Source: Aquibaculum arenosum (lineage in GTDB: Bacteria > Pseudomonadota > Alphaproteobacteria > Kiloniellales > DSM-21159). Taken from it: DNA of 64,000 nt. Location of the stretch: NCBI RefSeq assembly GCF_029222965.1, contig NZ_JARHUD010000001.1, positions 310,001 to 374,000 of the forward strand. Reading direction: 5' to 3'. Below are positions 3,875 to 18,053 of the stretch, one piece after another. A program made the position numbers and the translations under genes. The notes under the pieces are model-generated. The model was not told the origin of the DNA, ran no database searches, and saw nothing but the letters and a program-made list of their open reading frames with translations. Numbering within the stretch: position 1 is the first letter of the stretch; every line of letters begins with the position of its first letter.

Positions 3875-3994
3875 CGCGTTGCAATTACCCGGCCCCGGCT
3901 GGGAACCCTCCGCCTGGATCGGGCATTCTTCATTGCAGTACAACAGGTTATTCCCCCTGTGTTGCGATTGCGGGGGTGGTCCTATTGCAACGCG
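3875..3994. repeat. 11-bp inverted repeat bracketing ~98 bp upstream of aasR
   Basis: CGCGTTGCAAT at 3875-3885 is repeated as its exact reverse complement ATTGCAACGCG at 3984-3994. Between and just after the arms lie further ATTGC or TTGCGAT copies. The arms are too far apart for a simple terminator and look more like paired binding sites or a long-range hairpin. This accounts for most of the 297-bp gene-free stretch 3872-4168; no small ORF is convincing there. Confidence 0.5.
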
Positions 3995-4002
3995 AGTTCA
4001 TT

Positions 4003-4030
4003 TTGCTGCATTGCGATCACCGCCTATAAC
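4003..4030 (+). promoter_or_regulatory. Candidate sigma70-type promoter for aasR/sphingolipid operon
   Basis: TTGCTG (4003-4008) and TATAAC (4025-4030) are separated by 16 bp. The predicted start of transcription is near 4037, leaving a leader of about 130 nt before the aasR ATG at 4169. It lies just downstream of the second ATTGCAACGCG arm, so a factor bound there could contact polymerase. Assigned by eye. Confidence 0.4.
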
Positions 4031-4168
4031 TTGATAACGGGTCGAAAGCGTCGAGTCGTGCAGCCAGGCAAGCGCCCGGCGTGCCAACGCACCGCTTCCG
4101 ATCTTGTGATCTGTCTCGTGCTTCCGCCATTCGGCCGAAGCCGGCCGAAGTCCGATTGGAGCCATCGC

Positions 4169-5944
4169 ATGCAGTTAACGACGACCAGCAACGATAACCT
4201 GCCGCTGCGGGTCGGTGCTTTCGAGACGCTCGTCGAAGGCCTCGACTACGCCGCCCGCGGTGCCACCGGCTTCAACTTCTTCTCCGAGCGCGGCAAGCCC
4301 AGCCTCTCCCTGACCTATCGCGAGATCCGCGAGCGGGCACTGGATCTGGCGCTGCGCTTCTCGGCTTCGCGTCTGGGCCGCGGTGCCCGGGTGGCGATGA
4401 TTGCCGAGACCCGGCCAGAATTCATGGTCGCCTTCTTCGCCTGCCAGTATGCCGGCCTGGTGCCCGTGCCCCTGCCGCTCAGCGTCAACCTGGGCGGCCG
4501 CGAGGCCTACGTGACGCGCCTCGCCGCGATGATGAAGCGCGCCCACGTCTCGGCCGCGATCACCTCCGACGATCTCTTCCCCATGCTGGACGAGGCAGCC
4601 GGCCAGGTCGGTGTGGATTGCGTCGGCACCTACGAGGATTTCGCCGCGCTCTCCTACGCCGGCGGCGAGATCCGTCCGCTGGGCAAGGAGGATCCGGCCT
4701 ACATCCAGTTCTCCTCGGGCAGCACCTCGCTGCCACGCGGCGTGATGGTCTCGCAGCGCTCGATCATGGCCAATGCACGCGGCATCGGTCAGCACGGCCT
4801 GCAGCTGCGCGCCGGCGATCGCGCCACCTCCTGGCTGCCGCTCTATCACGACATGGGGCTCGTGGGCTTCTGTCTGACGCCGGCGATGGCCCAGATTTCC
4901 GTTGACTACCTGGCCACCACGACCTTCGCCCGCCGGCCGCTGCTGTGGCTGCAGACGCTCTCCGAGCGCGGCGGCACCATCGCTTTCGCACCGACTTTCG
5001 GCTACGAGCTTTGCCTGCGCCGCGCCGCGAAGGTGGAGCCGGGCCAGTTCGACCTCTCGCGCTGGCGCGTTGCCGGCATCGGCGGGGAGATGGTGCGGGC
5101 CTCCGTGCTCGAAGCCTTCTCCGAGCGTTTTGCCGACTGCGGCTTCGACGGCAAGGCCTTCCTCCCCAGCTACGGGCTTGCGGAGTCAACGCTGGCCATC
5201 AGCTTCAGCCGTCTGGGCGAAGGCGTGAAGACCGACACGGTGGATCTGGAGGCCGCGGCCAAGCGCGATCTCGCTCTGCCGCTGCATGGCCAAGGCACCT
5301 CGCAGCGCGCACGCACTTTCGTGCGTTGCGGCACGCCCTTGCCGGAGCATCGTGTGGAAATCCGCGACACCCAGGGCCGTGTTCTGCCCGAGCGCCGCAT
5401 CGGCCGCGTCTACATCACTGGCCCCAGCCTGATGGAAGGCTATTTCCGCGACACCGCAGCGACCAAGAAGGCCATGCCCGAGGCCGGCTGGCTGGATACC
5501 GGCGATCTCGGCTACATGGCCGAGGGCGAATTGGTCATCACCGGACGCAGCAAGGACCTCATCATCATCGGCGGTCGCAACATCTGGCCGCAGGATCTGG
5601 AGTGGGCGGTCGAAACGCTCGATCGTGTCCGTGCCGGCGACGTGGCGGCCTTCGGTGTTTCCGACGGGGACGAGGGCGAGCGGGTCGTGCTGGTGGTGGA
5701 ATGCCGCCTGAAGGACGCGAGCGAGCGCATGTTGTTGCGCCGGGAGATCGCGGCGATCGTGCAGCGCAGCTCCGGTGTTGCCTGCGACGTGGTGCTGACC
5801 CGTCCGAATACGCTGACCTTCACCTCTTCGGGCAAGCTGAGTCGCGCCGCTGCCAAGGCCGACTATCTCTCCGAGCGCATCAGTGATCTCGACAGCGATG
5901 CCGAGCAGGAAGCCGCCTATGCCCTGGCTGTCGGGGCGGAGTAG
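4169..5944 (+). CDS. aasR: Fatty acyl-AMP ligase / acyl-ACP synthetase of sphingolipid synthesis (AasR type), 591 aa
   Basis: It probably activates a fatty acid and loads it onto the dedicated ACP encoded at 7009, supplying serine palmitoyltransferase. The adenylation core has FSSGSTSLPRG at residues 181-191 and the FAAL-type PLYHDMGLVG, with the C-terminal lid at GRSKDLIIIGGRNIWPQDLE. Length near 590 fits FAAL-type ligases. I start at ATG 4169; the open frame runs back to 3959 but codes there for atypical peptide over the intergenic repeats. In Caulobacter crescentus, aasR, cerR, acpR and spt are clustered and required for ceramide synthesis, and the same four families appear here in this order. 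Calling the substrate a long-chain fatty acid is inference from that precedent. Confidence 0.85.
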   Translation: MQLTTTSNDNLPLRVGAFETLVEGLDYAARGATGFNFFSERGKPSLSLTYREIRERALDLALRFSASRLGRGARVAMIAETRPEFMVAFFACQYAGLVPVPLPLSVNLGGREAYVTRLAAMMKRAHVSAAITSDDLFPMLDEAAGQVGVDCVGTYEDFAALSYAGGEIRPLGKEDPAYIQFSSGSTSLPRGVMVSQRSIMANARGIGQHGLQLRAGDRATSWLPLYHDMGLVGFCLTPAMAQISVDYLATTTFARRPLLWLQTLSERGGTIAFAPTFGYELCLRRAAKVEPGQFDLSRWRVAGIGGEMVRASVLEAFSERFADCGFDGKAFLPSYGLAESTLAISFSRLGEGVKTDTVDLEAAAKRDLALPLHGQGTSQRARTFVRCGTPLPEHRVEIRDTQGRVLPERRIGRVYITGPSLMEGYFRDTAATKKAMPEAGWLDTGDLGYMAEGELVITGRSKDLIIIGGRNIWPQDLEWAVETLDRVRAGDVAAFGVSDGDEGERVVLVVECRLKDASERMLLRREIAAIVQRSSGVACDVVLTRPNTLTFTSSGKLSRAAAKADYLSERISDLDSDAEQEAAYALAVGAE

Positions 5945-6007: not shown

Positions 6008-7009
6008 GTGACTTCCGTTTCAGACCCGGCATCCGCCGTCATCGCCGTGACCGGGGCCAGTGGTTTTGTCGGTCGGGCGACGGTGGCCCGTCTGGCGGCC
6101 CATGGGCTGCGGCCCCGCATCTTGCTCCGCCGCCCGGATCCAGATCTGGAAGCCATGGCGGCCGGGGTGGTGCGCGGCGACCTGACGGACAGCAGCGCCC
6201 TGGAACGCCTGGTCGCAGGCGCGGACGCGGTGGTGCACATTGGCGGACTGGTGTCCGCGGTTCGAGCCAGCGACTTTCACCGTATCAACTGCGTGGTGAC
6301 GGAACGCCTGGCGGCGGCCGCTGCTGCTGCGGGTGTGAAGCGCTTCCTCCTCGTCTCCTCCCTTGCGGCGCGCCAACCGGAACTTTCCCCCTATGCGGCA
6401 AGCAAGTCCGCGGCGGAACAGGCGCTGTTGCGCGCGGCCCCGTGGCTGTGCCGTGCCATCGTCAGGCCGCCCGGAGTCTACGGCCCCGGAGACCGCGCCA
6501 CCCTGCCGATTTTCCGCCAGCTTGCCGGCGGCCTGGTGGTGATGCCCGGCAGCGCGCAAGCGCGCTTTTCCCTGATCTACGTCGATGACCTGGCGCGCGC
6601 TCTGGCGTCCCTGGTCGAGCATCCCGATGCCGCGGCCTGGGATGGTGAGCCTGTGCCCCTGGATGATGGGGCGGAAGGGGGGTATGCCTGGAGCGAACTG
6701 GCCGCGCTTGCCGGTCGGGCGCTGGGGCGACGGGTGCGGGTGCTGCAACTGCCGCCTGGTCTCCTGGCGCCGCTGGCCTGGGGCAGTGCGGGTCTGAGCC
6801 GGCTTAGCGGCCGGCCGGCGATGATCTCCCCGGGCAAGCTGCGTGAACTGGCCTGGCCCGACTGGGTGGCCAAGGCGCAACCGGAACGACTGCCACCCGA
6901 GGGGCGACCGCGCGTTGGCTTTACCGAGGGCTTTACCCTGACCCTCCAATGGTATGAAAAGCAGGGGTGGCTTCCCGCGAGCCGCATCCGTCAAGAAGAG
7001 GCAGAATGA
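6008..7009 (+). CDS. cerR: NAD(P)-dependent epimerase-fold reductase (CerR type), 333 aa
   Basis: An extended SDR with the dinucleotide-binding motif GASGFVG near residues 16-22 and an active-site YAASK near 137. In Caulobacter sphingolipid synthesis, CerR of this fold reduces the keto group left by serine palmitoyltransferase, apparently at the oxidised-ceramide stage. It sits between aasR and the ACP gene, 63 bp after aasR, and its TGA touches the ACP start. The start is GTG 6008; no clear ribosome site precedes it, but the Rossmann motif follows closely, so a later start is unlikely. The general family is secure; the ceramide role rests on gene order. Confidence 0.82.
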   Translation: MTSVSDPASAVIAVTGASGFVGRATVARLAAHGLRPRILLRRPDPDLEAMAAGVVRGDLTDSSALERLVAGADAVVHIGGLVSAVRASDFHRINCVVTERLAAAAAAAGVKRFLLVSSLAARQPELSPYAASKSAAEQALLRAAPWLCRAIVRPPGVYGPGDRATLPIFRQLAGGLVVMPGSAQARFSLIYVDDLARALASLVEHPDAAAWDGEPVPLDDGAEGGYAWSELAALAGRALGRRVRVLQLPPGLLAPLAWGSAGLSRLSGRPAMISPGKLRELAWPDWVAKAQPERLPPEGRPRVGFTEGFTLTLQWYEKQGWLPASRIRQEEAE

Positions 7010-7260
7010 TGAGCGATACCGAGCAGACGGTCTACGATACGGTCTGTGAGCTGCTGCAGCGCTACAACCGCGAAGGTCGGGAGCTGCGGCCCGAGACCGA
7101 TCTCAATGCCGAGCTCAATATTGACTCGGTGGCGGCCATGGACCTGATCATGGAGATCGAGGACAAGTTTGACATCGATATCCCGATCAACCTGGTGGGT
7201 GACCTTCGCACCGTGAAGGATCTCGTCGCCACGGTTCGCAGCCAGCAGGAAGGCGCCTGA
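7009..7260 (+). CDS. acpR: Specialised acyl carrier protein (AcpR type), 83 aa
   Basis: A small acidic ACP carrying the phosphopantetheine site in NIDSVAAMDL, with Ser40 as the attachment residue. ATG 7009 gives MSDTEQ; ATG 7006, one codon earlier, is equally possible, and a purine-rich AAGAAGAGG lies upstream. The cerR stop overlaps the start and its own TGA overlaps the spt ATG by one base, so cerR, acp and spt should be translated together. It is not the housekeeping AcpP, which is normally beside fabG/fabF, and probably delivers the acyl chain from AasR to serine palmitoyltransferase. Confidence 0.87.
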   Translation: MSDTEQTVYDTVCELLQRYNREGRELRPETDLNAELNIDSVAAMDLIMEIEDKFDIDIPINLVGDLRTVKDLVATVRSQQEGA

Positions 7261-8474
7261 TGGACATTCTCGCCAAGTACGATGGCCTTGCCGAACGGCG
7301 CGATCTCATGCTCGAGGCCGGGGCCAATCCCTTCGGCCTGCGCATGGAGAAGGTGCTCTCGCCGACCGAAGCGCTGGTGAACGGCCGGCGCACGCTGCTG
7401 GTGGGGACCAACAACTATCTCGGGCTGACCTTCGATCCGCATTGTATCGCCGCCGGCGTGAAGGCGCTGCAGGAGCAGGGCACCGGCACCACGGGCTCGC
7501 GCATTGCCAACGGCAGCTACGCCCTGCATGAGGCCCTCGAAGAGGCGATCGCGCGCTTCCTCAAGCGCAAGTCGGCCATCGTCTGGCCCACGGGCTACCA
7601 GGCAAACCTCGGCATGATCGCCGGGCTGGCCGGGCCCGGGGACACCATTCTGCTCGACGCCGATTCCCACTCCTCGATCTATGACGGCTGCCGTCTGTCC
7701 GGCGCGACACTGGTGCGTTTCCGCCACAATGACCCGGCGGATCTCGACAAGCGCCTGGCCCGGCTGCGGCGCCAGGGTGCGGCGGAGAACGGGGCGCTGC
7801 TGGTGATCGTCGAGGGCATCTATTCCATGCTGGGCGACATCGCCCCACTGCCCGAGTTCGTCGAGGTCAAGGACCGGCATGGCGCCTTCCTCCTGGTGGA
7901 CGAGGCCCACTCCCTGGGCGTGATGGGCGTCTGTGGCCGCGGCGTTGCCGAGGCGCAGGGGATCGAGGCGGGCGTGGATTTCCTGGCCGGCACCTTCTCT
8001 AAGTCTCTGGGTGCCATCGGCGGGTTCGGTGTTTCCGACCACCCGCATTTCGAGCGGCTGCGCTACTGCAGCCGACCCTATATGTTCACCGCCTCCGCCT
8101 CGCCGGCGAGCATCGCCACGGTGATTGCGGCCATCGAGCGGATCGAGCAGGAGCCCGGGCTGATAAAGCAGCTCTGGCGCAACGCCGAAGCGCTGCACAG
8201 CGGCCTTGCGGCCGAGGGCTTCGAGATCGCCGCACCGGTCAGCCCGGTGGTGGCCGTCAAGCTGCCCGACGAGCGACTGGCGGTGGCCTTCTGGAACGCG
8301 CTGCTGCAGGCAGGGATCTATGTGAATCTGGCGGTGCCGCCAGGAACGCCCAACAACAGCTGCCTGATGCGCTGCTCCGTCTCCGCGGCGCACACGCCCG
8401 AGCAGATCCAGGGGGTGGTGCGCACCTTCGTCGAGGTGCGCGAGGCGCTGGACGCGAGCGCTCCGGCAAGCTGA
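7260..8474 (+). CDS. spt: Serine palmitoyltransferase (alpha-oxoamine synthase), 404 aa
   Basis: A PLP enzyme condensing L-serine with an acyl thioester to 3-keto-sphinganine, the committed step of sphingolipid synthesis. The PLP lysine is K248 in GTFSKSLGAIGGF; DEAHS at 214-218 stacks and holds the cofactor; GTGTTGSRIANGS at about 74-86 is characteristic. The fold is shared with BioF, Kbl and HemA, but no biotin, threonine or haem partner is adjacent; ACP, acyl-ACP ligase and reductase genes are. The ATG overlaps the ACP stop by one base. The use of acyl-ACP rather than acyl-CoA is inferred from the upstream ACP. Confidence 0.9.
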   Translation: MDILAKYDGLAERRDLMLEAGANPFGLRMEKVLSPTEALVNGRRTLLVGTNNYLGLTFDPHCIAAGVKALQEQGTGTTGSRIANGSYALHEALEEAIARFLKRKSAIVWPTGYQANLGMIAGLAGPGDTILLDADSHSSIYDGCRLSGATLVRFRHNDPADLDKRLARLRRQGAAENGALLVIVEGIYSMLGDIAPLPEFVEVKDRHGAFLLVDEAHSLGVMGVCGRGVAEAQGIEAGVDFLAGTFSKSLGAIGGFGVSDHPHFERLRYCSRPYMFTASASPASIATVIAAIERIEQEPGLIKQLWRNAEALHSGLAAEGFEIAAPVSPVVAVKLPDERLAVAFWNALLQAGIYVNLAVPPGTPNNSCLMRCSVSAAHTPEQIQGVVRTFVEVREALDASAPAS

Positions 8475-8936: not shown

Positions 8937-9836
8937 TCAGCGAAAGCCGCCCTTGCGATAGAGACGCCAGGCCAGGAAGGGAGCGGACAGCAGCGGATGG
9001 CGCTGCTCCCAGGGTTTGGGCACGACGCGCACGCCCGAGTGTCGCTCGATCTTCCAGAGCAGATAGCTCTGGCCGCCGGCAAAGGTGAAGGCGGCTTTCG
9101 TTAAGCGCGCCACCGAAAGCAGCTTGCCCCAGAGCCGGCGCAGCGCCCAACGCCGGTTGGCACGACGCTCGCCGTCAGCGCTCGGCGGCGGCAGTTGGGG
9201 CAAAAGGCACGCTCCTAGCGCCTCATAGCGCACGGCGTAGCGCGCGACCAACTCTGCCGCTCGTCCTGGCTGCTCCGCGCGCAGTTCGGTGCGATAGGTC
9301 TCCGCAAAAGCCCGTTCGAACAAGGCGGCCGGGGAGGTGCTTTTCGGCAGCAGCGGGCGCGTCTGGGCGCCGAGCGTGGCGACGGACTGCGCCAGCAGCG
9401 CCACCGACCTCCGTCGCACCGCGGCATCGCTGGACCAGAGCAGACCCGTGGGCTGGGCGAAGCGGGCCCAGAAGTAGGAATGGAAACTGCGCTGCGTCAC
9501 CAGCCGCTCCAGCGCACTAAGGGTTACCAACGCGTACTTCGCGCGCACGATGCGGCCCTCGAACGCGACCTCCTGATAATAGACGTTGGGTGGCAGCACC
9601 CGGTTGCCCAGCGCCGAGAGCGGGTTGCGGTGCGCCTGACGGTAGCTCTCCACCAGGAGGTAGAGATCGACCAGCCCCCCCTCGTCGCTGCCACTGCGCA
9701 GGCAACTGCCATAGAAGAGGATGGCAAGGGTTCCGGGATGGCGCGCGCGGGCGGCCTCCGCTACGGCGTGCACCGCGGTGGAGGCGGGCGCATCGATCTC
9801 GCCTTCGATGATTGCCTGGAGAGGGGACAGGTCCAT
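8937..9836 (-). CDS. TAM41/Mmp37-like nucleotidyltransferase, candidate lipid-phosphate cytidylyltransferase, 299 aa
   Basis: A nucleotidyltransferase-fold protein. FYGSCLRSG (GS at residues 43-44) is followed by VDLYLLVESY with Asp57, then NVYYQEVAFEGRIVRAKYALV (84-104) and a C-terminal helical part with YRTELRAEQPGRAAELV. This order, in particular the Tyr-Gly-Ser, Val-Asp-Leu and Ala-Lys-Tyr-x-Leu-Val elements, matches mitochondrial TAM41, which makes CDP-diacylglycerol from phosphatidate and CTP. It is the last gene of the minus operon, 8 bp after a DAGK-type kinase, suggesting activation of ceramide-1-phosphate to CDP-ceramide before headgroup transfer; that reaction is my inference. The ATG 9836 start removes an implausible Arg-rich extension. 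It could correspond to one of the Caulobacter Cpg proteins. Confidence 0.68.
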   Translation of the reverse strand: MDLSPLQAIIEGEIDAPASTAVHAVAEAARARHPGTLAILFYGSCLRSGSDEGGLVDLYLLVESYRQAHRNPLSALGNRVLPPNVYYQEVAFEGRIVRAKYALVTLSALERLVTQRSFHSYFWARFAQPTGLLWSSDAAVRRRSVALLAQSVATLGAQTRPLLPKSTSPAALFERAFAETYRTELRAEQPGRAAELVARYAVRYEALGACLLPQLPPPSADGERRANRRWALRRLWGKLLSVARLTKAAFTFAGGQSYLLWKIERHSGVRVVPKPWEQRHPLLSAPFLAWRLYRKGGFR

Positions 9837-9844
9837 CGGTCGCC

Positions 9845-10801
9845 TCAAAAGCGCAAGAAGGACAGGCTGTCGTCGGCGGTGATCCGCAGGGGACGGGAGG
9901 GATCGGGCTGATAGAACTGGCCGTCGAGGGTGAAGGGCTCGCGCAGCTCCAGCTCGATGCTGCGCGCGCCGCGGCTGCGGTAGCCCTCGGGCAGGCGGCG
10001 CGTGCGTCCGCCGTAGAGGACACAGGGCGCGTGCCACAAGAGGCGCCGGGGCGGATGGGCGATGGCCGTATAGCGCAAAGGACCCCCGTCCTGATTCCAG
10101 AAGGGACGCGAACCGACCACAAGGCGATCCAGCGTGGTGACCAGGACCAGAAGTTCATGCCGTTCGTTGGGCGATGCGCCGTCGAAGGCAGTGGCGATGG
10201 TCTCGCCGGGCACCGCATCGCGGCTGGTCCCCAGAGCCCAGCCGAGCAGCAGGCCGGCGATGGTCAGGCCTGCGGCCCAGTCGGCCTCGATGCCCAGCGC
10301 GTGCACCCGGCGGCGGCAGATCTCGATGGCCTGATGAATCCCGGCGGCACCAAAGAACATGCCGCGTTGGGGTGGCGCATCGGCCATGCCCTCCAGGCGC
10401 AGGATCGGTCGATGGCGCAGGTGGCGTTCGATTTCGCCGCTGCGCGCCAGGGCCGTGAGTCGCCGGAGGATCCCGCCCGGGCGCCCGCGCAGGCCCACAT
10501 CGGCCGCCGTCATGTTGGTCATGCCGCGCGGCAGCAGGGCGAGCAGGGGCGGTCGCGCGCCATAGGGCCGCTCTTCCAGAAGGCTTGTCATCACCGCCTG
10601 CACCGTGCCGTCGCCCCCGGCCACGGCCAGGATGCCGACCTCGTGCCGCGCGAAGTCACGCAGGACCTGCGGGATCTCCGCCACATCGTCCAGGCGATGA
10701 TGCAAAAGGTCCGGCAAGGCGTCGGCCGCGGCCTGCAGGCGTGGCATGCCGCGCTTGTTCTGCTGGCTGCGCGGGTTGCTGACGAGGCCCACTTTGAGCA
10801 C
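9845..10801 (-). CDS. DAGK-family lipid kinase, candidate ceramide kinase (CpgB type), 318 aa
   Basis: A diacylglycerol/sphingosine-kinase fold protein with the ATP-binding GGDGTV at residues 62-67, preceded by SNPRSQQN at the N-terminus. Members phosphorylate the hydroxyl of a lipid at the cytoplasmic membrane face. Caulobacter CpgB, of this family, is a ceramide kinase required for anionic ceramide phosphoglycerate, and this gene occupies the matching context beside ceramide-synthesis genes. It follows the LptG-like gene by 13 bp and precedes the TAM41-like gene by 8 bp. A general YegS/DagK role cannot be excluded from sequence alone. Confidence 0.8.
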   Translation of the reverse strand: MLKVGLVSNPRSQQNKRGMPRLQAAADALPDLLHHRLDDVAEIPQVLRDFARHEVGILAVAGGDGTVQAVMTSLLEERPYGARPPLLALLPRGMTNMTAADVGLRGRPGGILRRLTALARSGEIERHLRHRPILRLEGMADAPPQRGMFFGAAGIHQAIEICRRRVHALGIEADWAAGLTIAGLLLGWALGTSRDAVPGETIATAFDGASPNERHELLVLVTTLDRLVVGSRPFWNQDGGPLRYTAIAHPPRRLLWHAPCVLYGGRTRRLPEGYRSRGARSIELELREPFTLDGQFYQPDPSRPLRITADDSLSFLRF

Positions 10802-10814
10802 AGGCGCTGCTTTC

Positions 10815-11903
10815 TCAGGAACGTCGGGAGAGGGTGATGGGTGCGGTCGCTTCCGGCTTCAGCAGCAGGTGCGCCACAAGACAGGCGAGCAGTATGGGCG
10901 GCGACCAGGCCGCCAGCAGCGGCGGCAGGAAGCCCACCTCGCCCAGAGCCACCGACATGCCGTCCAGAATGAAGAAGGCAAAGCCGAAGGCCAATCCGCT
11001 CAGTGTCAGGCGAGTCACTTCGCCGGTGCGTCGCCAGCCCTGACCGAGGGCAAAGGCGAGGCAAAGCACCAGCGGCGCGCCGAAGAACTGGGCGAGACGG
11101 GCGTTCACCCAGGTGGCATAGAGCTCGCGGGGTCGCTGGCCATAGCCGTCGCTTTGCAGCAGGTCCCAGAGATCGACCAGCGCCAGTTCGCGCGGCGGTC
11201 GCTCCACCAGACGGAGCTGCGCGACCTCCACGTGGCCTTTCCATGCGAGTTCCGGCACTTCTGTGGTGCGGTAGGGATCGGTGTCGTGCCTGACCACGTC
11301 GCGCAGCAGCCAACCGTCTTCGCGCTTCACGGCAACGGCCGCATCGAGCCGATCGAGCAGCGTGCCATCCTCGCTGCGGCGGAAGAGGGTGACCTGTTCA
11401 AGCTGCTCCTCCTGCAGGTTCTGGGCCGCGATGCGCACGATGTCGTTGCCGCTGCGCAGCCAGATGAACTCCCGGTCCCCGCTCAGCAACCCGCCGCTGC
11501 GAAACTCCCCCACACCCCAGTCACGCAAGGCGTCGGTCGTGTGCGGCACCACCTGGTCGTTGAGCAGGAACTGGAGCAGACCCAGTGACAGCAGGACCGG
11601 CAGCAAGCCGGTGAGCAGGCGGAACTGCGACAGGCCGCTGCCCCAGGTGGCCACCAGTTCCCGCTGCCGCAGCAGTTCCGCCACGGTGAGCAGCGCGGCG
11701 ATCAAGGTCGCGATCGGCAGCAGCTGCGCCATCAATGAGGGCAGGCGCAAGAGCGTATAGCGAAAGACTGTTTCGCTGGTCCACTCGTCGCCGCTGAAGG
11801 CCTCGGTCATCTCGAAGGCCACCACAGCCAGAGAGACGCCGATCAGCACCAGCAGGAAGCGCAGGATGAACAGGCGGGCAAAGTAGCGGTGCAGCGTCGT
11901 CAT
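10815..11903 (-). CDS. LptG/LptF-family permease (second of a pair), 362 aa
   Basis: A YjgP/YjgQ-family inner-membrane protein with three N-terminal membrane segments (about 15-32, 52-78, 98-118), a periplasmic beta-jellyroll region of about 120-260, and three C-terminal segments. In the LPS pathway such proteins pair with LptB2 to extract a lipid and pass it to LptC/LptA. Its ATG overlaps the stop of the LptF-like gene (ATGA). Canonical lptF-lptG normally lie near lptD; here neighbours are lipid kinase, phosphoesterase and ceramide genes, so a role in moving sphingolipids is an attractive inference. It may still be the only LptG of the cell. Confidence 0.8.
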   Translation of the reverse strand: MTTLHRYFARLFILRFLLVLIGVSLAVVAFEMTEAFSGDEWTSETVFRYTLLRLPSLMAQLLPIATLIAALLTVAELLRQRELVATWGSGLSQFRLLTGLLPVLLSLGLLQFLLNDQVVPHTTDALRDWGVGEFRSGGLLSGDREFIWLRSGNDIVRIAAQNLQEEQLEQVTLFRRSEDGTLLDRLDAAVAVKREDGWLLRDVVRHDTDPYRTTEVPELAWKGHVEVAQLRLVERPPRELALVDLWDLLQSDGYGQRPRELYATWVNARLAQFFGAPLVLCLAFALGQGWRRTGEVTRLTLSGLAFGFAFFILDGMSVALGEVGFLPPLLAAWSPPILLACLVAHLLLKPEATAPITLSRRS

Positions 11904-13087
11904 CCGGGCGCCGCTCCCCGACCTTCATCCGGCCGTCGGCGTCTGCGTCGGCGCAGCAGTCCCGAGCCCGGCACACGGAAGGCGGCGCGCAGGAAAAGCG
12001 TGAATGACAGCAGGGCGAAACCCGCCACCGGCAGCCAGATCCCAATCGCCGGCTCGATGTTGCCGCGCCGCACTTCCCTCAGCCCCGACTGCAGCAGTTC
12101 GTTGAAGAGCAGCAGCACCACCACGCCGATGAGCATCCCGTAGTTGCGCGCGCTGCGCCGGCGCCCCATGGCCAGCGGAATGGCGAGGAAGGGCAGAATG
12201 GGAATGGAGACTATGCGCGCCAGGCGCATGTTGAACTCGCCGATCAGGCGCTCGCGGTCGATGCCCACGTCCGGGTCGTCGCGCCGGTTCCAGAGCTCGG
12301 CAAGCGTCAGTTCCCGCTCATCCATGCCCCGGGCGCGAAAGGCCGTGAAGGCGCCGTCCCCGATGGTCGTGCGCAGCTCGTCGAAGCGCAGCACGCCCTC
12401 TGAGGCTTCGGGGCTGTCGCGATCCTCGGCCGGGTTCAACCGCGTCGTCAGCTGAACGCCGTCGAAGAGGCGAACCACCGGCGGGTGGTTGCTGCCGGTT
12501 TCCACGAGAACGCCGTCCTGGGCGGTGATGGCCAGCGCCTGGTCCTCGTCGGTTTCGCGATAGACGAAGACCCGCTCATAGCGCTCCTTGTCACGCGAGG
12601 CGCCCTCCACCATGAAGGTGAAGCCGTCGGCTGAGACGAAAACGCCGGGCTGTAGCAGAGCCTGGAGCGACACGTTGGTCACCGCATAGACCACGGCCCG
12701 GTAGGCATAGCGGCTGTGGGGTTGCAGCGAGTTGAAGATCACGAAAGCGAGCATCGCCAGCAGCAGCGTCGCCGCCAGGGCGGGGCGCAGAAGTTGGTGC
12801 AGGCCGGTGCCCGTCGCCAGCATCACATCCAGTTCGCTGTCGCGCGACAGCTTGCGGAAGGCGAAGTAGACCGCAAGGAACAGCGCCATGGGCAGTGCGA
12901 GGCCCAGGTAGTGCGGAACGAGGTAGGCCAGCAGCTCCACGACCACGCGCACGGGCCCCTTGGCGCCCAGCACGAAGTCCAGCACCCGCAGCATGCGCTC
13001 GACCAGCAGCACCATCAGGGCGATCAGCAGCGTCAGCCCCAGCGGCGGCAGCAGGAGTTTGATGACATAGCGGTTGAAAATGGGCAT
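11900..13087 (-). CDS. LptF-family permease (first of a pair), 395 aa
   Basis: Starts MPIFNRYVIKLLLPPLG, a typical LptF/LptG N-terminus running into the first membrane helix. Helices follow near 50-72 and 92-118, then a periplasmic region of about 120-270 and C-terminal helices beginning near 295 (ARIVSIPILPFLAIPLAMG). The C-terminus ends in an Arg-rich run and the reading frame is coupled to the LptG-like gene by a 4-bp overlap. ATG 13087 is preferred over the in-frame upstream start at 13114 because the conserved N-terminus begins there. It probably forms a heterodimer with its neighbour and needs an ATPase (LptB) encoded elsewhere. Confidence 0.82.
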   Translation of the reverse strand: MPIFNRYVIKLLLPPLGLTLLIALMVLLVERMLRVLDFVLGAKGPVRVVVELLAYLVPHYLGLALPMALFLAVYFAFRKLSRDSELDVMLATGTGLHQLLRPALAATLLLAMLAFVIFNSLQPHSRYAYRAVVYAVTNVSLQALLQPGVFVSADGFTFMVEGASRDKERYERVFVYRETDEDQALAITAQDGVLVETGSNHPPVVRLFDGVQLTTRLNPAEDRDSPEASEGVLRFDELRTTIGDGAFTAFRARGMDERELTLAELWNRRDDPDVGIDRERLIGEFNMRLARIVSIPILPFLAIPLAMGRRRSARNYGMLIGVVVLLLFNELLQSGLREVRRGNIEPAIGIWLPVAGFALLSFTLFLRAAFRVPGSGLLRRRRRRRPDEGRGAAPG

Positions 13088-13137
13088 TGCGTCCCGCTTT
13101 CCGTCCCGGGGCACCGGCCCCGCTCGGCGCGACTGTC

Positions 13138-14079
13138 CTAGCGCAGCCGGCCCGGCAAGGCCAGTGTGCGGCTGTCGCGCTCCAGGAAGCGGCCGGCTTC
13201 GGGATCGTAGCCTCGTCGCTGCAGCCGCAGCCCGCCGTCCTCGGCGAAATGCAGAAGGTGGTAGCCCGCCGCCGGGCGGCCGTGCCAGGCAAGCGCGCTG
13301 CCAGAGGCGACGCCAAGCACCGGGATCGGCCCGTCGGGCCCGGGCAGCTCATCTTGCAGGTAGCGATGGTCGTGGCCGTGCAGCAGGAGGCTGCAGCCGC
13401 GCCGCACCAGGATGTCGCGCAGCGCCGCGGCATCGCTCAGGGCCTTGCGGCGGCTGTTGCGGCCGGCGACCGGGCTGTGATGAATGAGGATGATTACCTG
13501 GACCGCTTCCTGATTCAGTTCCGCCAGCATCTTATCCAGGCGCTCGAGCTGCGCCCGGCCGAGGCGACCGCTTGCCAAGGTCGGCGCGGTGGGGACGGCG
13601 GTAGACAGGCCGACCAGGGCCAGAGGGCCGCGGCGGGTGAGGGTGGGGAAAGGGTCCGCGAAGCTGGGAGCTCCTCGGCCCGCCGGCGTGCCGGGCAGAT
13701 AGGCCTGCCAGTGGCCCCAGGACTGCTCCCAGGTCTGGCGCACAAGATGGTCGTGGTTGCCGGGAACCAGCGTCAGCCGCTCGGGCGGCGCCAGGCGTTC
13801 GAGGAGGCGGGCCGCCGCCGCAAACTCAGCCGGCAGAGAGAGGTTCACCAGGTCACCGGTGAGCGCGATGTGATCAGGTGCCTGCGCCTGAATGTCCTCC
13901 AGAAGCGCCTCCAGCACCTCGGGCCGATGGACCGCCTTGCGCTTGCTGTGCCAGGACAGCCAGCTCAGCAGTCGCTTGCCGAGCAGCTCCCGCGGGCGGG
14001 CGCGGGGCAGGGGCGGCAGGTGCAGGTCGGAGATGTGAGCGAGAACGAAGGTCAAGCGCGGGCATCCAGGCGGTGACAA
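13138..14079 (-). CDS. Calcineurin-like metallophosphoesterase, about 313 aa
   Basis: A binuclear metallophosphoesterase with the full motif set: HISDLH (15-20), GDLVN (74-78), GNHDH (106-110), and later HHSP and HGHDHRY. This resembles the LpxH/Icc branch acting on phosphodiesters or pyrophosphates. It lies between the MobA-like gene (30 bp) and the LptF-like gene (50 bp), so it is probably a member of the sphingolipid operon and may cleave a nucleotide-activated or phosphorylated lipid intermediate; this is inference. The exact start is uncertain: GTG 14079 is used, but an internal TTG just before the conserved FVLAHISDLH is possible. Confidence 0.85.
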   Translation of the reverse strand: MSPPGCPRLTFVLAHISDLHLPPLPRARPRELLGKRLLSWLSWHSKRKAVHRPEVLEALLEDIQAQAPDHIALTGDLVNLSLPAEFAAAARLLERLAPPERLTLVPGNHDHLVRQTWEQSWGHWQAYLPGTPAGRGAPSFADPFPTLTRRGPLALVGLSTAVPTAPTLASGRLGRAQLERLDKMLAELNQEAVQVIILIHHSPVAGRNSRRKALSDAAALRDILVRRGCSLLLHGHDHRYLQDELPGPDGPIPVLGVASGSALAWHGRPAAGYHLLHFAEDGGLRLQRRGYDPEAGRFLERDSRTLALPGRLR

Positions 14080-14109: not shown

Positions 14110-14928
14110 CTAGGCTTCGGCATTGCGGCTTGCCAGGATGCGCTCGGCCAGGGCCAGATCCTCCGGCTTGTCCACATCCACCGCTGCCCAGGCCTCGGGG
14201 AGGATTACGGTGCGCGCCTGGGCACCGGCAACACGGGACAGCCGGCCCATAGCGTGCTCCAACGTCAGTCGGCGCAGCAAATAGGCGAGCAGCGTGCCCG
14301 GACCGACGCGCCGGGCGATGCGCCAGGGGCGCTTGCGGTCCTGCTCCACCGATTGCCAGAAGGCAATGGCGTCGGCCGCAGCCGGACGTTTGAGCGCAAA
14401 GAGGTTCGCGCCACTGTAGGACTCCTCGCGAAAGCGCAAGAAGGTGCGCCGACTCTCCGGGAAGGCAGCTCGGATCGCGCTGGCCGGCACCAGGGCGGCA
14501 TCGATGTCGCTCTCCTGCGCCAGTGACCGGGCGCAGAAGGCATCGATCAGTGCGGGCGTGAGCAAGGCATGGTCGGCGGTGGTGACCAGGGTGGGGCAGG
14601 GATATCCCAACTGCTTCCAACCTGCGGCGACGCTGCCCGCGGGGCCGGCGCCGGTGGGCAGCATGACGATGCGTCCGGACTCCAAGGCTGGTCTCAAGCC
14701 TTCGATCTCCGAGAGCAGATCGGGTGTCGGCGCTGCCACCGCGATCTTGTCGATGCTCCGGGCCGCCAGCAGCGCGTCGAGCACCCGCTCCACCATCGGC
14801 CGGCCCGCCACCGGCGCCAGGGCCTTCCAGCGCTGTCCGCTGTGGCGTGCCACCGGATCGTCCGGTCCGCGCTGGCCGGCGAGCACGAGCGCGGTGACGG
14901 TGCCCGGCGGTGGTGCGGCGGCGCTCAC
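14110..14928 (-). CDS. MobA-like NTP transferase domain protein, 272 aa
   Basis: An NTP_transf_3 (MobA-like) fold: VLAGQRGPDD near residue 15, KALAPVAGRPMVERVLDAL at about 35-53, and TTADHAL with the metal-binding Asp near 120. Such proteins couple a nucleotide to a phosphorylated sugar, sugar acid or small molecule. The start overlaps the bcerS stop by four bases, so it is translationally coupled to ceramide synthase. A role in preparing the polar headgroup (for example an activated glycerate or sugar) is inferred from context. A molybdenum cofactor role is unlikely because no mob/moa genes are near. Confidence 0.78.
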   Translation of the reverse strand: MSAAAPPPGTVTALVLAGQRGPDDPVARHSGQRWKALAPVAGRPMVERVLDALLAARSIDKIAVAAPTPDLLSEIEGLRPALESGRIVMLPTGAGPAGSVAAGWKQLGYPCPTLVTTADHALLTPALIDAFCARSLAQESDIDAALVPASAIRAAFPESRRTFLRFREESYSGANLFALKRPAAADAIAFWQSVEQDRKRPWRIARRVGPGTLLAYLLRRLTLEHAMGRLSRVAGAQARTVILPEAWAAVDVDKPEDLALAERILASRNAEA

Positions 14929-16067
14929 GTCAGTTCCTTCTGGTAGATCCGATAGGTCTTGTAGGCCTGGGGGGCCAGCCGCTCGATCAGGCGGCGCATG
15001 GGGCGGTTGTTCTCCAGCACCCAGGAGAGCTCCGCGCCGGTCACGCGCCCCCGGGCACGGTGGTACTCATAGGCCCGTTCGATGACGCCGAGCGCGAGCG
15101 CCGCGCCCAGGACGCCGCCCTGGTAGCGCTTGCGCACGCCCATCAAGGGCATGCGGCCGCTGGTGGTGCCGCGCACCTTGATGCGCCAGAGCAGCTTCGC
15201 CAGGCCGAAGGGCAGGAGACGGCCGTTCAGGTCGGCAATGGCCTCGTTGACGTTCGGGAGCGTCACGGCGAAGGCTGCCGGCTCGCCCTCCACCTCGCCG
15301 ATGGTGACCCACTCGGGCTTGATCAGCGGGCGCAGGCTCTTGGCCAGGTGCCGCACCTCGCCCTCGGTCATGGGCACAAAGCCCCAGTTGTCGCGCCAGG
15401 CATCGTTGAAGATGTCGACGATCAGCCTGAGTTCTTCGGTGTAGCGGGAGAAATCCATCGGCCGGAAAGTGACGCGGCTGTCTCCGATCCCCGAGGCGAT
15501 CAGGCGCTTGAGTGAGTCCGGGAAAGGCTGGGTCATATCGACCCAATAGGCCAGAAGGTCGCGCGCCTTTGTGTAGCCCTGCTCCTCCACCCGCGGGCCA
15601 TACCAGGGTCGGACGTGGCCCATCATCATCGACGGCGGGCGATCGAAACCGTCGACCAGCAGCCCGCTTTCATCGTTGATCGAGAGGCTGAAGGGGCCGA
15701 AGACGCGCTGCAGGCCCTTGCTGCGCAGCCAATCCTCCGCGGTCCCGAAGAGCGCCGAAAAGACTTCCTGACGATCGATGGCTTCCAGGAATCCGAAAGT
15801 GCCGGCCTCGTCTTTGTGCTGCTCCAGGCGCAGCCGGTCGACCTGCGCGCTGATGCGGCCGACGGGCACGCCATCGGACCAGGCGATCCACAGCTTGGCC
15901 TCGGCGTGCTCGAACCAGGGATTGTGTTTCGGACTCAGATGTTGGCGCCGCTCCAGGAGCAGCGGCGGTACCCACTGCGGGTCCTCGGCGTAGATTCGCC
16001 AGGGAACCCGCAGGAAGGCATCGAGATCCTTACCGGTCTCGACAGGCGTGACCTGGATGTCGGTCAT
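14925..16067 (-). CDS. bcerS: Bacterial ceramide synthase-type N-acyltransferase (bCerS, CC_1154-like), 380 aa
   Basis: The protein starts MTDIQVTPVETGKDLDAFL and carries VPWRIYAEDPQWVPPL, followed by a long GNAT-like body (FGPFSLSINDESGLLVDGF near 130; a C-terminal acetyltransferase-like half with a final AYKTYRIYQKEL). This architecture is that of the Caulobacter CC_1154/bCerS family, often mis-annotated as dATP pyrophosphohydrolase, which N-acylates the long-chain base. Length of about 380 agrees. It sits 12 bp after the hydroxylase gene and is coupled to the MobA-like gene. Because spt, cerR, acpR and aasR are in the same locus, the full ceramide pathway is encoded here. Acyl donor unknown. 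Confidence 0.85.
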   Translation of the reverse strand: MTDIQVTPVETGKDLDAFLRVPWRIYAEDPQWVPPLLLERRQHLSPKHNPWFEHAEAKLWIAWSDGVPVGRISAQVDRLRLEQHKDEAGTFGFLEAIDRQEVFSALFGTAEDWLRSKGLQRVFGPFSLSINDESGLLVDGFDRPPSMMMGHVRPWYGPRVEEQGYTKARDLLAYWVDMTQPFPDSLKRLIASGIGDSRVTFRPMDFSRYTEELRLIVDIFNDAWRDNWGFVPMTEGEVRHLAKSLRPLIKPEWVTIGEVEGEPAAFAVTLPNVNEAIADLNGRLLPFGLAKLLWRIKVRGTTSGRMPLMGVRKRYQGGVLGAALALGVIERAYEYHRARGRVTGAELSWVLENNRPMRRLIERLAPQAYKTYRIYQKELT

Positions 16068-16079
16068 GCCCGGACGGCG

Positions 16080-16844
16080 TCAGCGGCTGCGGGCCGGCCG
16101 CAAGGCCCCCGTTTGCTGATGCGCAGCATCGGACAGCGCCTCGACCCAGGGGTAGTGCTCGGCCTTCTCGGCCGTGTAGCCGAGGTTGAACACCGTTTCG
16201 CTGCGCGGCACGTCGCGCGGATGGCCGTAGTAGGTGTTCAGCAGCCGGTCCCAGAGGAAGTTGGTGATGCCGAAGTTGCCCTTCTCGCTGTGGAAGTGAT
16301 GGGCAAGGTGTAGCCGCTTCATCTGCTTCAGCCAGTTCCACTTCGGCTTGAAGGGCAAGTGCTGGATGCAGTGGCAGAACTCATAGAAGCAGGTGGTGAG
16401 CAGGCCGGCGGCCGTGGCCGCCGCGGCACCGGCCGACCCGGCGATGACCCAGCCAAGCGGCACCGTGACGATGAGGATCGTCGGCAGTGTGGTGTAGAGC
16501 GCGCCGAAGAGCACCGAGAGATCGTGCGGGTCTTGATGGTGATCGTAGTGGATGCGCTTCCAGACCTTGGCGGTCCAGGGCATGCGATAGAGCCACTGAC
16601 CGTGCAGGACCCAGCGGTGCAGCCCATACCAGACAGCCGGATAGAGCGGCAGAACGATGCCTGCGGCAAGGGCGGGACCGATCCAGCCCTCGGCCCAGTA
16701 CAGGGTCAGCGCAATGGCTCCCGCCGCCAGCAGGAGGTACACCAGAATCGCATAGTAGGTGAAGTAGGCGATCACCAGATCGCGCAAGGTCATCTTGTCG
16801 AGAAAGTACTTGCGCCCGGACCAGGGGCCGATAGCTGGGCTCAC
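16080..16844 (-). CDS. Fatty acid hydroxylase/sterol desaturase family membrane enzyme, 254 aa
   Basis: A di-iron membrane oxygenase with four membrane-spanning stretches and the His boxes HRWVLH (76-81), HYDHH (99-103), HCIQH (158-162) and HLAHHFH (179-185). Family members hydroxylate or desaturate lipid chains using O2. It is the first gene of the minus-strand sphingolipid operon, so hydroxylation of the ceramide long-chain base or N-acyl chain is likely, but carotenoid or other lipid substrates remain possible. Start GTG 16844 has GAGG about 8 nt upstream. The C-terminal tail after about residue 230 is poorly conserved-looking. Confidence 0.82.
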   Translation of the reverse strand: MSPAIGPWSGRKYFLDKMTLRDLVIAYFTYYAILVYLLLAAGAIALTLYWAEGWIGPALAAGIVLPLYPAVWYGLHRWVLHGQWLYRMPWTAKVWKRIHYDHHQDPHDLSVLFGALYTTLPTILIVTVPLGWVIAGSAGAAAATAAGLLTTCFYEFCHCIQHLPFKPKWNWLKQMKRLHLAHHFHSEKGNFGITNFLWDRLLNTYYGHPRDVPRSETVFNLGYTAEKAEHYPWVEALSDAAHQQTGALRPARSR

Positions 16845-17075: not shown

Positions 17076-18053
17076 GTGGCGGGAGAGCTCTTCGGCAAGA
17101 AGGCGCAGCGATGGGCCGCACGCCTTGCCCCGCTGCGACTCCTGCTGCAAAGCCTGGAAGCGTTGGTTCTCCTGCTCTTTCTGGCGCTCGCAGCGCTGCT
17201 GCCGCCGAAGCGCGCGTCGTCCTTCGGGGCGGCGCTGGCCGGATGGATCGGGCCGCACTTGGCCAAGCATCGCCATGTGGAACGCAACCTCGCTTTCGCT
17301 TTGCCCGAGGGTGCGCCGGGCGAGAGAGAGGCTGCCGCGCTGGGGAGCTGGCGCACGCTGGGCGCCGTGCTCGGGGAGATGCCCCACCTTGGCCGCCTCG
17401 CCGATCTGGAGCGCCGCCCGCCGGCCGTGGAGCTCTGTACGGCAAAAGGGGCGGAGGATATCCCGGACCGCCTGGCGCGGGGCGAGGCCTTCGTGTTCGT
17501 CACCGCCCATCTGGGCAACTGGGAACTCCTGCCCCGCCTGCTGGTGCAACTCGGCGGCAAGGCAGCCGTGATCTACACGCCCCAGGGCAATCCGCTGACC
17601 GATTCCCTGCTGCAGCGGCTGCGCAGGAGCCCCGGCATCGCCTTCATCGGCAAGCAGGGGGGCGTGCGCGCCTTGCTGCAGGCGATGCGCCGCGGGGAGA
17701 GTCTCGGCCTGCTGGTCGACCTGCGCAGCGACGAGGGCGAGGCAATCCCCTTCTTCGGCGTGCCCGCCATGACCAGCACGGCGCCGGCGCGGCTCGCCCT
17801 CATGGCCAAGGCGGAACTGGTGCCGGTGCGCGTTGAGCGGCTGGCCCCGGCGCGCTTTCGCGTAACCGTGGACAGGCCCATCGAACCGCGCGATTCGGTT
17901 GCCTCGGCACAGGCACGCGCTCGGGACATGACGGAACAGGTCAACGCGCGTTTCGCTGCATGGATCCGCCTGCGCCCCGGCGATTGGCTCTGCACCAAGC
18001 GGCGCTTTCCCAAGGAGATCACGCCGCCTTTGGCGCCCGATAGAGGCGCTTGA
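17076..18053 (+). CDS. LpxL/HtrB-type lysophospholipid/lauroyl acyltransferase, 325 aa
   Basis: A membrane-anchored acyltransferase with an N-terminal hydrophobic helix (about 26-43) and the catalytic HLGNWE motif (H145 to E150), then GLLVDLRSDEGEAIPFFG, the typical LpxL/M substrate region. In lipid A synthesis it adds a secondary acyl chain to Kdo-lipid IVA at the inner membrane. Start GTG 17076 follows GGAAAGGA. It is divergent from the sphingolipid operon, an interesting pairing because both control outer-membrane lipid composition. Its exact position specificity (LpxL, LpxM or an MsbB variant) cannot be decided. Confidence 0.85.
   Translation: MAGELFGKKAQRWAARLAPLRLLLQSLEALVLLLFLALAALLPPKRASSFGAALAGWIGPHLAKHRHVERNLAFALPEGAPGEREAAALGSWRTLGAVLGEMPHLGRLADLERRPPAVELCTAKGAEDIPDRLARGEAFVFVTAHLGNWELLPRLLVQLGGKAAVIYTPQGNPLTDSLLQRLRRSPGIAFIGKQGGVRALLQAMRRGESLGLLVDLRSDEGEAIPFFGVPAMTSTAPARLALMAKAELVPVRVERLAPARFRVTVDRPIEPRDSVASAQARARDMTEQVNARFAAWIRLRPGDWLCTKRRFPKEITPPLAPDRGA

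Follow-up and report, generated by a model that had tools for sequence, protein, structure and literature searches.

A single LptF/LptG-type pair in the sphingolipid operon as a probable replacement for the LPS exporter in a Kiloniellales-like bacterium

The genome of Aquibaculum arenosum (GCF_029222965.1) seems to lack the genes for making lipopolysaccharide (LPS), yet it keeps the machine which normally carries LPS to the cell surface, and the only LptF/LptG permease genes found for that machine sit inside its sphingolipid operon; therefore, the machine probably carries sphingolipids instead. The most likely reading, with a probability of roughly 0.7, is that a complex of the LptB2F2G2-C-A-D type exports phosphosphingolipid in place of LPS. 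The sequence itself establishes the sole LptF/G pair and its place in the sphingolipid run, the failure to find LpxC and LpxB beside retained LptB, LptA, LptC and LptD, the absence of lptFG between pepA and lptD in LPS-less relatives, the conserved LptB-coupling residues and an acidic residue in the lipid pocket where Escherichia coli needs a non-acidic one, while transport itself, the exact lipid and LptD as the outer-membrane gate are inferences, as no experiment was made and neither mutants nor lipids were analysed.

The analysed window, a stretch of 64,000 nucleotides (contig C1, positions 310001-374000) of a 3.49-Mb, 29-contig genome given as 100% complete, holds a compact sphingolipid locus in which eight minus-strand genes run with gaps of -4 to 50 bases. 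The run starts with a fatty acid hydroxylase-type gene at 16080-16844 (-) (PF04116, 1.6e-19), followed by a GNAT-fold gene at 14925-16067 (-) (PF00583, 5.8e-7) taken as the bacterial ceramide synthase (CerS), which recurs beside SPT and the permease pair in other genomes, a MobA-like nucleotidyltransferase at 14110-14928 (-) (PF12804, 2.6e-14), CpgD-like by family and place, and a metallophosphoesterase at 13138-14079 (-) (PF00149, 1.9e-17). The two permeases come next, and downstream of them are a DAGK_cat lipid kinase at 9845-10801 (-) (PF00781, 3.2e-10), ceramide-kinase-like by place, and a last gene of 299 aa at 8937-9836 (-), which recurs at this place in relatives but gave no Pfam match and, for its longer ORF, no NCBIfam match. 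A plus-strand group converges on this run and consists of an AMP-binding acyl-activating enzyme (AasR-type) at 3959-5944 (+) with an uncertain start codon (PF00501, 1.4e-57), a NAD-dependent epimerase-type reductase (CerR-type) at 6008-7009 (+) (PF01370, 1.7e-31), an acyl carrier protein (AcpR-type) at 6967-7260 (+) (PF00550, 2.8e-11) and a serine palmitoyltransferase (SPT) at 7260-8474 (+), which passes its NCBIfam cut-off (NF047599, 606.4 bits against 500). The names AasR, CerR, AcpR, CerS and CpgD rest on family, gene order and the Caulobacter pathway; the Caulobacter proteins were not aligned. In addition, an LpxL-type acyltransferase gene at 17076-18053 (+) is divergent from the run (PF03279 Lip_A_acyltrans, 8.2e-41; best NCBIfam model 144 bits, cut-off 273).

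The permease pair described in the first-pass annotation is confirmed. Both ORFs match Pfam LptF_LptG (PF03739) over the whole profile (6.2e-56 for the LptG-type and 1.2e-65 for the LptF-type gene; 190 and 222 bits, cut-off 27.9). The upstream gene, 11900-13087 (-), encodes 395 aa from the ATG at 13087 (longest ORF 11900-13114) and is LptF-type (TIGR04407, 229.3 bits against a cut-off of 230), while the downstream gene, 10815-11903 (-), encodes 362 aa and is LptG-type (TIGR04408, 214.4 bits against 240), an assignment settled by NCBIfam and by profile scores against E. coli. Both thus fall under the cut-offs for the LPS exporters, the first only marginally. The ATGA overlap at 11903-11900 is present in the sequence, the metallophosphoesterase, lipid kinase and divergent LpxL-type neighbours are as annotated, and the pair is not beside lptD, which lies on another contig (C25). 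The arrangement is not due to chance, since the same neighbours recur in relatives and in many named Proteobacteria. AF2 models of LptG2 and LptF2 are confident (mean pLDDT 92.1 and 89.4), and their helix-strand-helix order fits six transmembrane helices around a periplasmic beta domain. In a Foldseek search with the LptG2 model the first seven PDB matches are all LptG chains (best 6mjp_G, E 3.9e-18, TM 0.78 by query length); the LptF model was not searched, and no joint fold with LptB was made.

The first-pass annotation proposed that, if the genome has a second, canonical lptFG, the pair is likely a paralogous one that feeds phosphorylated ceramides into a bridge to the outer membrane, and named a sole pair, or clustering within the canonical LPS-export proteins, as grounds for rejecting the idea. 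This interpretation is partly supported. Its core idea, an Lpt-type permease pair that moves phosphorylated ceramides toward the outer membrane, is well supported by genome evidence, although transport itself is not shown. Only two PF03739 genes were found in the genome, and the first of these conditions is literally fulfilled; however, it does not refute the idea, because neither LpxC nor LpxB, both needed for lipid A, was found, while E. coli and Caulobacter controls were in both searches, so that the pair does not work beside an LPS exporter here but seems to have replaced it. The second condition is not fulfilled, as the pair falls in a clade apart from the lptD-adjacent proteins of its own order, for LptG (branch value 97) as well as LptF (83; 99 in the larger tree). 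That missing LpxC merely reflects a draft gap was rejected with LpxB as the second marker, which left the own genome without a match. LpxC and LpxB were the only lipid A genes sought (LpxA, LpxD, LpxK, WaaA and MsbA or other flippases were not searched) and lipid A was not assayed, which leaves the question of LPS as the cargo undecided. The LpxL-type gene, which the annotation took as part of an outer-membrane-lipid theme, would then need a target other than lipid A. The rest of the bridge is kept: LptD is present with SurA- and KsgA-like genes behind it, and LptC, LptA and LptB lie together before an rpoN-like gene, with LptB over its cut-off (367 against 240) and LptC and LptA diverged but over their Pfam cut-offs. 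The presence of this machinery and of a single pair could also mean that these are simply the ordinary LptF and LptG, carrying LPS from another operon, but this is very unlikely given the missing LpxC and LpxB, the separate CerS-linked clade, the occurrence of both types in 13 of 13 LPS makers with CerS in the order, and the acidic residue at LptG position 34 described below.

A comparison within the order (Kiloniellales-like Alphaproteobacteria) amounts to a natural experiment. In the LptF tree, proteins of three sampled relatives were identical to those of deposited MAGs (G009 with JARFRB010000029.1, named Pelagibius litoralis and in the window's family; G043 with WHTV01000015.1, Kiloniellaceae; G023 with CAMYKD010000050.1, Kiloniellales). 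Among 50 genomes of the order (48 of them at least 90% complete and at most 5% contaminated), LpxC was found in 38, and LpxB returned the sampled genomes G014 and G045 to the LPS makers, leaving ten as LPS-less (G000, the genome of the window, G005-G009, G020, G021, G026 and G047). Each of the ten has one full LptF/G pair, that of G005 being split over two contigs and G047 having a further weak partial hit under the cut-off, and all ten pairs fall in one clade with the CerS-linked pairs (LptFG2). The 40 LPS makers have the canonical type, of which 29 have a row in the canonical LptG clade, while the 11 not put into the trees have their pair next to LptD by coordinates. LpxB was searched in 43 genomes only, of this and the wider sample described below, and the other LPS makers rest on LpxC. 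LptFG2 is present in 21 of 21 genomes with a strong CerS match and in 2 of 29 others; the weak CerS hits of G028 and G029 (23-25% identity) were counted as absent, and the third PF03739 gene of G019 was not classed. LptD and LptC are each kept in 10 of 10 LPS-less genomes, which implies a cargo for the bridge.

The lost pair seems to have left a scar. In three LPS makers examined gene by gene (G001, G016, G028) the order is pepA, lptF, lptG, lptD, surA, whereas in 8 of 10 LPS-less genomes pepA stands beside lptD with no lptFG match between; in the own genome and G005, tmk, holB and metG stand there (pepA, tmk, holB, metG and ksgA being labels given by eye). In the LPS makers of the window's own family (G003, G004, G010, G011) only lptG is next to lptD and lptF lies elsewhere, so the loss in this family need not have been one deletion. 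The LPS-less state needs 5 changes on the LptD tree (4 forced by supported branches), 5 on the SurA tree (3) and 4 on the PepA tree (2), which were read as repeated losses.

Beyond the order, a CerS scan was restricted to the best 80 of more than 580 loci, and the named sample therefore leans to close relatives of this CerS. Both permease genes lie in 51 of these 80 loci, and in 33 of the 37 with full flanks, in Hyphomicrobiales, Burkholderiales, Nevskia, Salinisphaera, Geobacter and Geothrix among others. In the LptF tree, 39 of 50 named rows fall in the window's clade (99, with 22 of 22 from the order), a separate clade of 10 holds gamma- and deltaproteobacteria, Geothrix and Acidocella, and Carnimonas stands alone. 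Whole genomes were searched for 50 of the 80 loci, chosen by hand and leaving out mostly short contigs and near copies. Two PF03739 genes were found in 15 of 17 LPS-less genomes and in 4 of 33 LPS makers (Fisher test, p 1.9e-7; 14 of 17 against 5 of 33, p 5.5e-6, with LpxC alone, before LpxB returned G097 to the LPS makers); these values treat related genomes as independent and overstate the evidence. The 17 include, by judgement, G056, which has a partial LpxC hit (5.1e-54, positions 1-244) and no LpxB. In 15 of 16 LPS-less loci (G056 not counted) both permease genes are in the CerS locus. Some genomes stand against the rule: G054 (four copies) and G063 (three) are LPS-less, and their extra copies, like those of G091 and G092, were not examined; G085 has LpxC and LpxB but only two PF03739 genes, at the CerS-linked place by coordinates; and G080, G081 and G084 have CerS and LPS genes but no LptFG2 in the CerS locus. 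Draft gaps may explain some of these, although this was not tested.

The pocket residues also differ between the two types. In the LPS-bound structure, LptG Lys34 and others bind a lipid A phosphate, and K34E has been reported to be lethal while K34A is normal (PMC6744409; the double mutant K34E/R136E in PMC5548808). Counted without gaps from the conserved tyrosine of TM1 (Y10 in E. coli, Y7 here), sphingolipid-type LptG has Asp or Glu at this position in 65 of 71 sequences, while canonical LptG of the order has Thr, Ser, Gly or Asn in 28 of 28; by multiple alignment the acidic counts are 66 of 72 and 0 of 29. The window has Glu31. A phmmer pairwise alignment opens a gap in TM1 and would pair Lys34 with Ala29, but the gapless count and the multiple alignment were preferred because TM1 is one continuous helix in the model. 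As canonical LptG of this order also lacks Lys34, the residue marks a difference and does not prove LPS incompetence. In sphingolipid-type LptF, position 29 is acidic in 60 of 72 and position 30 is Arg in 61 of 72, while canonical ones have neither in 23. The coupling-helix glutamates facing LptB (E94 of LptF2 and E82 of LptG2; contacts from PMC5548808) are invariant in all groups compared, and this fits a changed cargo with the same motor.

In the favoured mechanism, ceramide would be made and phosphorylated by the enzymes of the locus, an unknown flippase would bring the lipid to the outer leaflet of the inner membrane, and LptB2F2G2 would lift it to LptC, LptA and LptD. Alternatively, LptFG2 might act within the inner membrane or in lipid modification, for example by presenting ceramide to the enzymes of its own run. 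The tight linkage with the kinase, phosphoesterase and nucleotidyltransferase would agree with this, and no flippase or transporter of these lipids had been identified (PMC11087976), but it is improbable in view of the retained LptD and LptC and the match of the LptG2 model to LPS-extracting LptG.

LptFG2 is not tied strictly to sphingolipids, as G008 and G026 are LPS-less and also lack a CerS match and a true SPT (best 30% and 34% identity), yet their only pair is of the LptFG2 type, and the cargo may be broader. Both have an ELM1-family gene divergent from LptF (PF06258, 3.5e-59 and 1.4e-61), and G008 also has a sulfotransferase-type gene and a 319-aa gene without Pfam match, whose relatives, at 64-67% identity, flank the loci of G003, G009, G020 and G021. 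ELM1 relatives flank sphingolipid loci of 13 other genomes in the order sample. LptFG2 might therefore export another surface lipid, such as a glycolipid made with ELM1-family enzymes, and sit with sphingolipid genes because such lipids are usually built on ceramide, the anchor being replaceable. As the main account of the window this is unlikely, since a search of the window for ELM1 and for the 319-aa neighbour gene gave no match, and the pair sits between phosphosphingolipid-type enzymes with gaps of at most 50 bases. A bolder and only tentative reading is that the Lpt bridge is a re-assignable lipid conveyor, which in this order lost LPS and the LPS-type LptFG about four or five times and was handed over whole to a pre-existing sphingolipid LptFG2; in the two lines of G008 and G026 the sphingolipid genes would have been lost as well, with the same pump now serving a third, unknown surface lipid linked to ELM1-family enzymes, and the distinct CerS-linked LptF clade in gamma- and deltaproteobacteria, Geothrix and Acidocella would be a separate recruitment of the same machine.

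How bacterial sphingolipids reach the outer membrane is an open question. PMC11324152 states that it is not known and proposes LptC2, LptF2 and LptG2 without a test, and a term search of PMC12275187 found nothing on transport. Among the open-licence papers searched, PMC11324152 was the only one seen to speak of LptF/G with sphingolipids, so the idea of a sphingolipid Lpt pair is a published proposal, while the LPS-less, sole-pair case and the repeated loss of canonical lptFG are what is added here. A group of bacteria without LPS genes, with a kept Lpt bridge and one LptFG pair, would be a natural knockout, in that anything the bridge carries there could not be LPS. It also gives a simple charge marker (LptG position 34) for telling the two exporters apart in genome data, and suggests that an outer-membrane lipid system can be swapped by losing one permease pair.

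The closest known system is that of Caulobacter crescentus, in which CC_1168, CC_1156 and CC_1155 were named LptC2, LptF2 and LptG2 and probably move phosphosphingolipids (PMC11324152). As in the window, these second-version LptF and LptG genes lie with those for ceramide and phosphosphingolipid synthesis, with the same proposed cargo and route, but Caulobacter also makes LPS and has a canonical pair, whereas here the pair is the only one and no LptC2 was found in the cluster, the one LptC match of the genome lying on contig C24 beside lptA-lptB-rpoN. A flippase like CC_1166 was not searched for, and a Maricaulaceae relative (Euryhalocaulis) falls in the same LptF clade. The canonical LPS exporter LptB2FGC-A-D of E. 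coli and relatives shares the family, fold, coupling glutamates and the partners LptB, LptC, LptA and LptD, and differs in that neither LpxC nor LpxB, the only lipid A genes sought, was found here, in the separate clade, and in the acidic residue instead of Lys34 in LptG and the acidic-Arg pair in TM1 of LptF. Sphingomonads, LPS-less bacteria with surface sphingolipids (PMC11165598; PMC11324152), have an outer membrane with sphingolipid in place of LPS, as is inferred here; they were not examined in this analysis, but orthologs of much of the Caulobacter cluster have been listed in Sphingomonas wittichii and Zymomonas mobilis, among others (PMC11324152). In sphingomonads the genes are reported as scattered over the genome, while here they form one compact locus.

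In addition to the sphingolipid locus itself, an LpxL-type acyltransferase (window 17076-18053, plus strand) accompanies this locus in LPS-less genomes (the window and the genomes G006, G007 and G009 of the order) and in some others, and it was found at loci L037, L044, L045, L047, L103, L115, L132, L153 and L159. Without lipid A, this enzyme might add a secondary acyl chain to the hydroxylated ceramide, although this is only a guess. Moreover, the LPS-less genomes G008 (locus L046, 902-9183) and G026 (locus L068, 5926-9649) contain neither CerS nor true SPT, while their only LptF/G pair is of the sphingolipid type and lies beside ELM1-family genes (and, in G008, a sulfotransferase), suggesting a possible third Lpt cargo.

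The window's own genome also carries, on contig C6 (locus L093, 440-12891), a 2536-aa polyketide synthase followed by an SPT/BioF-like enzyme (34% to SPT), a second CerS-like gene (39%) and a capsule synthesis gene, which may be involved in making a second sphingoid-type lipid. As well, a KpsF/KdsD-family sugar-phosphate isomerase, an enzyme type of Kdo synthesis, is kept just upstream of lptC on contig C24 (locus L185, 7264-8289) although LPS genes are missing, and the capsule-type gene on C6 may use Kdo.

A third PF03739 gene (1.7e-49) is present in genome G019 of the order (locus L057, contig C57, 1383-2537), and it showed no BLAST match to the window pair at 1e-8. Seven and six PF03739 genes were found in the single genomes of Euryhalocaulis (G091, locus L164) and Acidisoma cellulosilyticum (G092, locus L165), respectively, representing further Lpt-type permease pairs with unknown cargo. 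In contrast to the window's LptF clade, the CerS-linked LptF of gamma- and deltaproteobacteria, Geothrix and Acidocella (loci L123, L119, L130, L132, L134, L144, L145, L147, L157, L160 and L174) fall outside it, with 10 in one clade and Carnimonas alone, which perhaps reflects a separate recruitment of Lpt permeases for sphingolipids.
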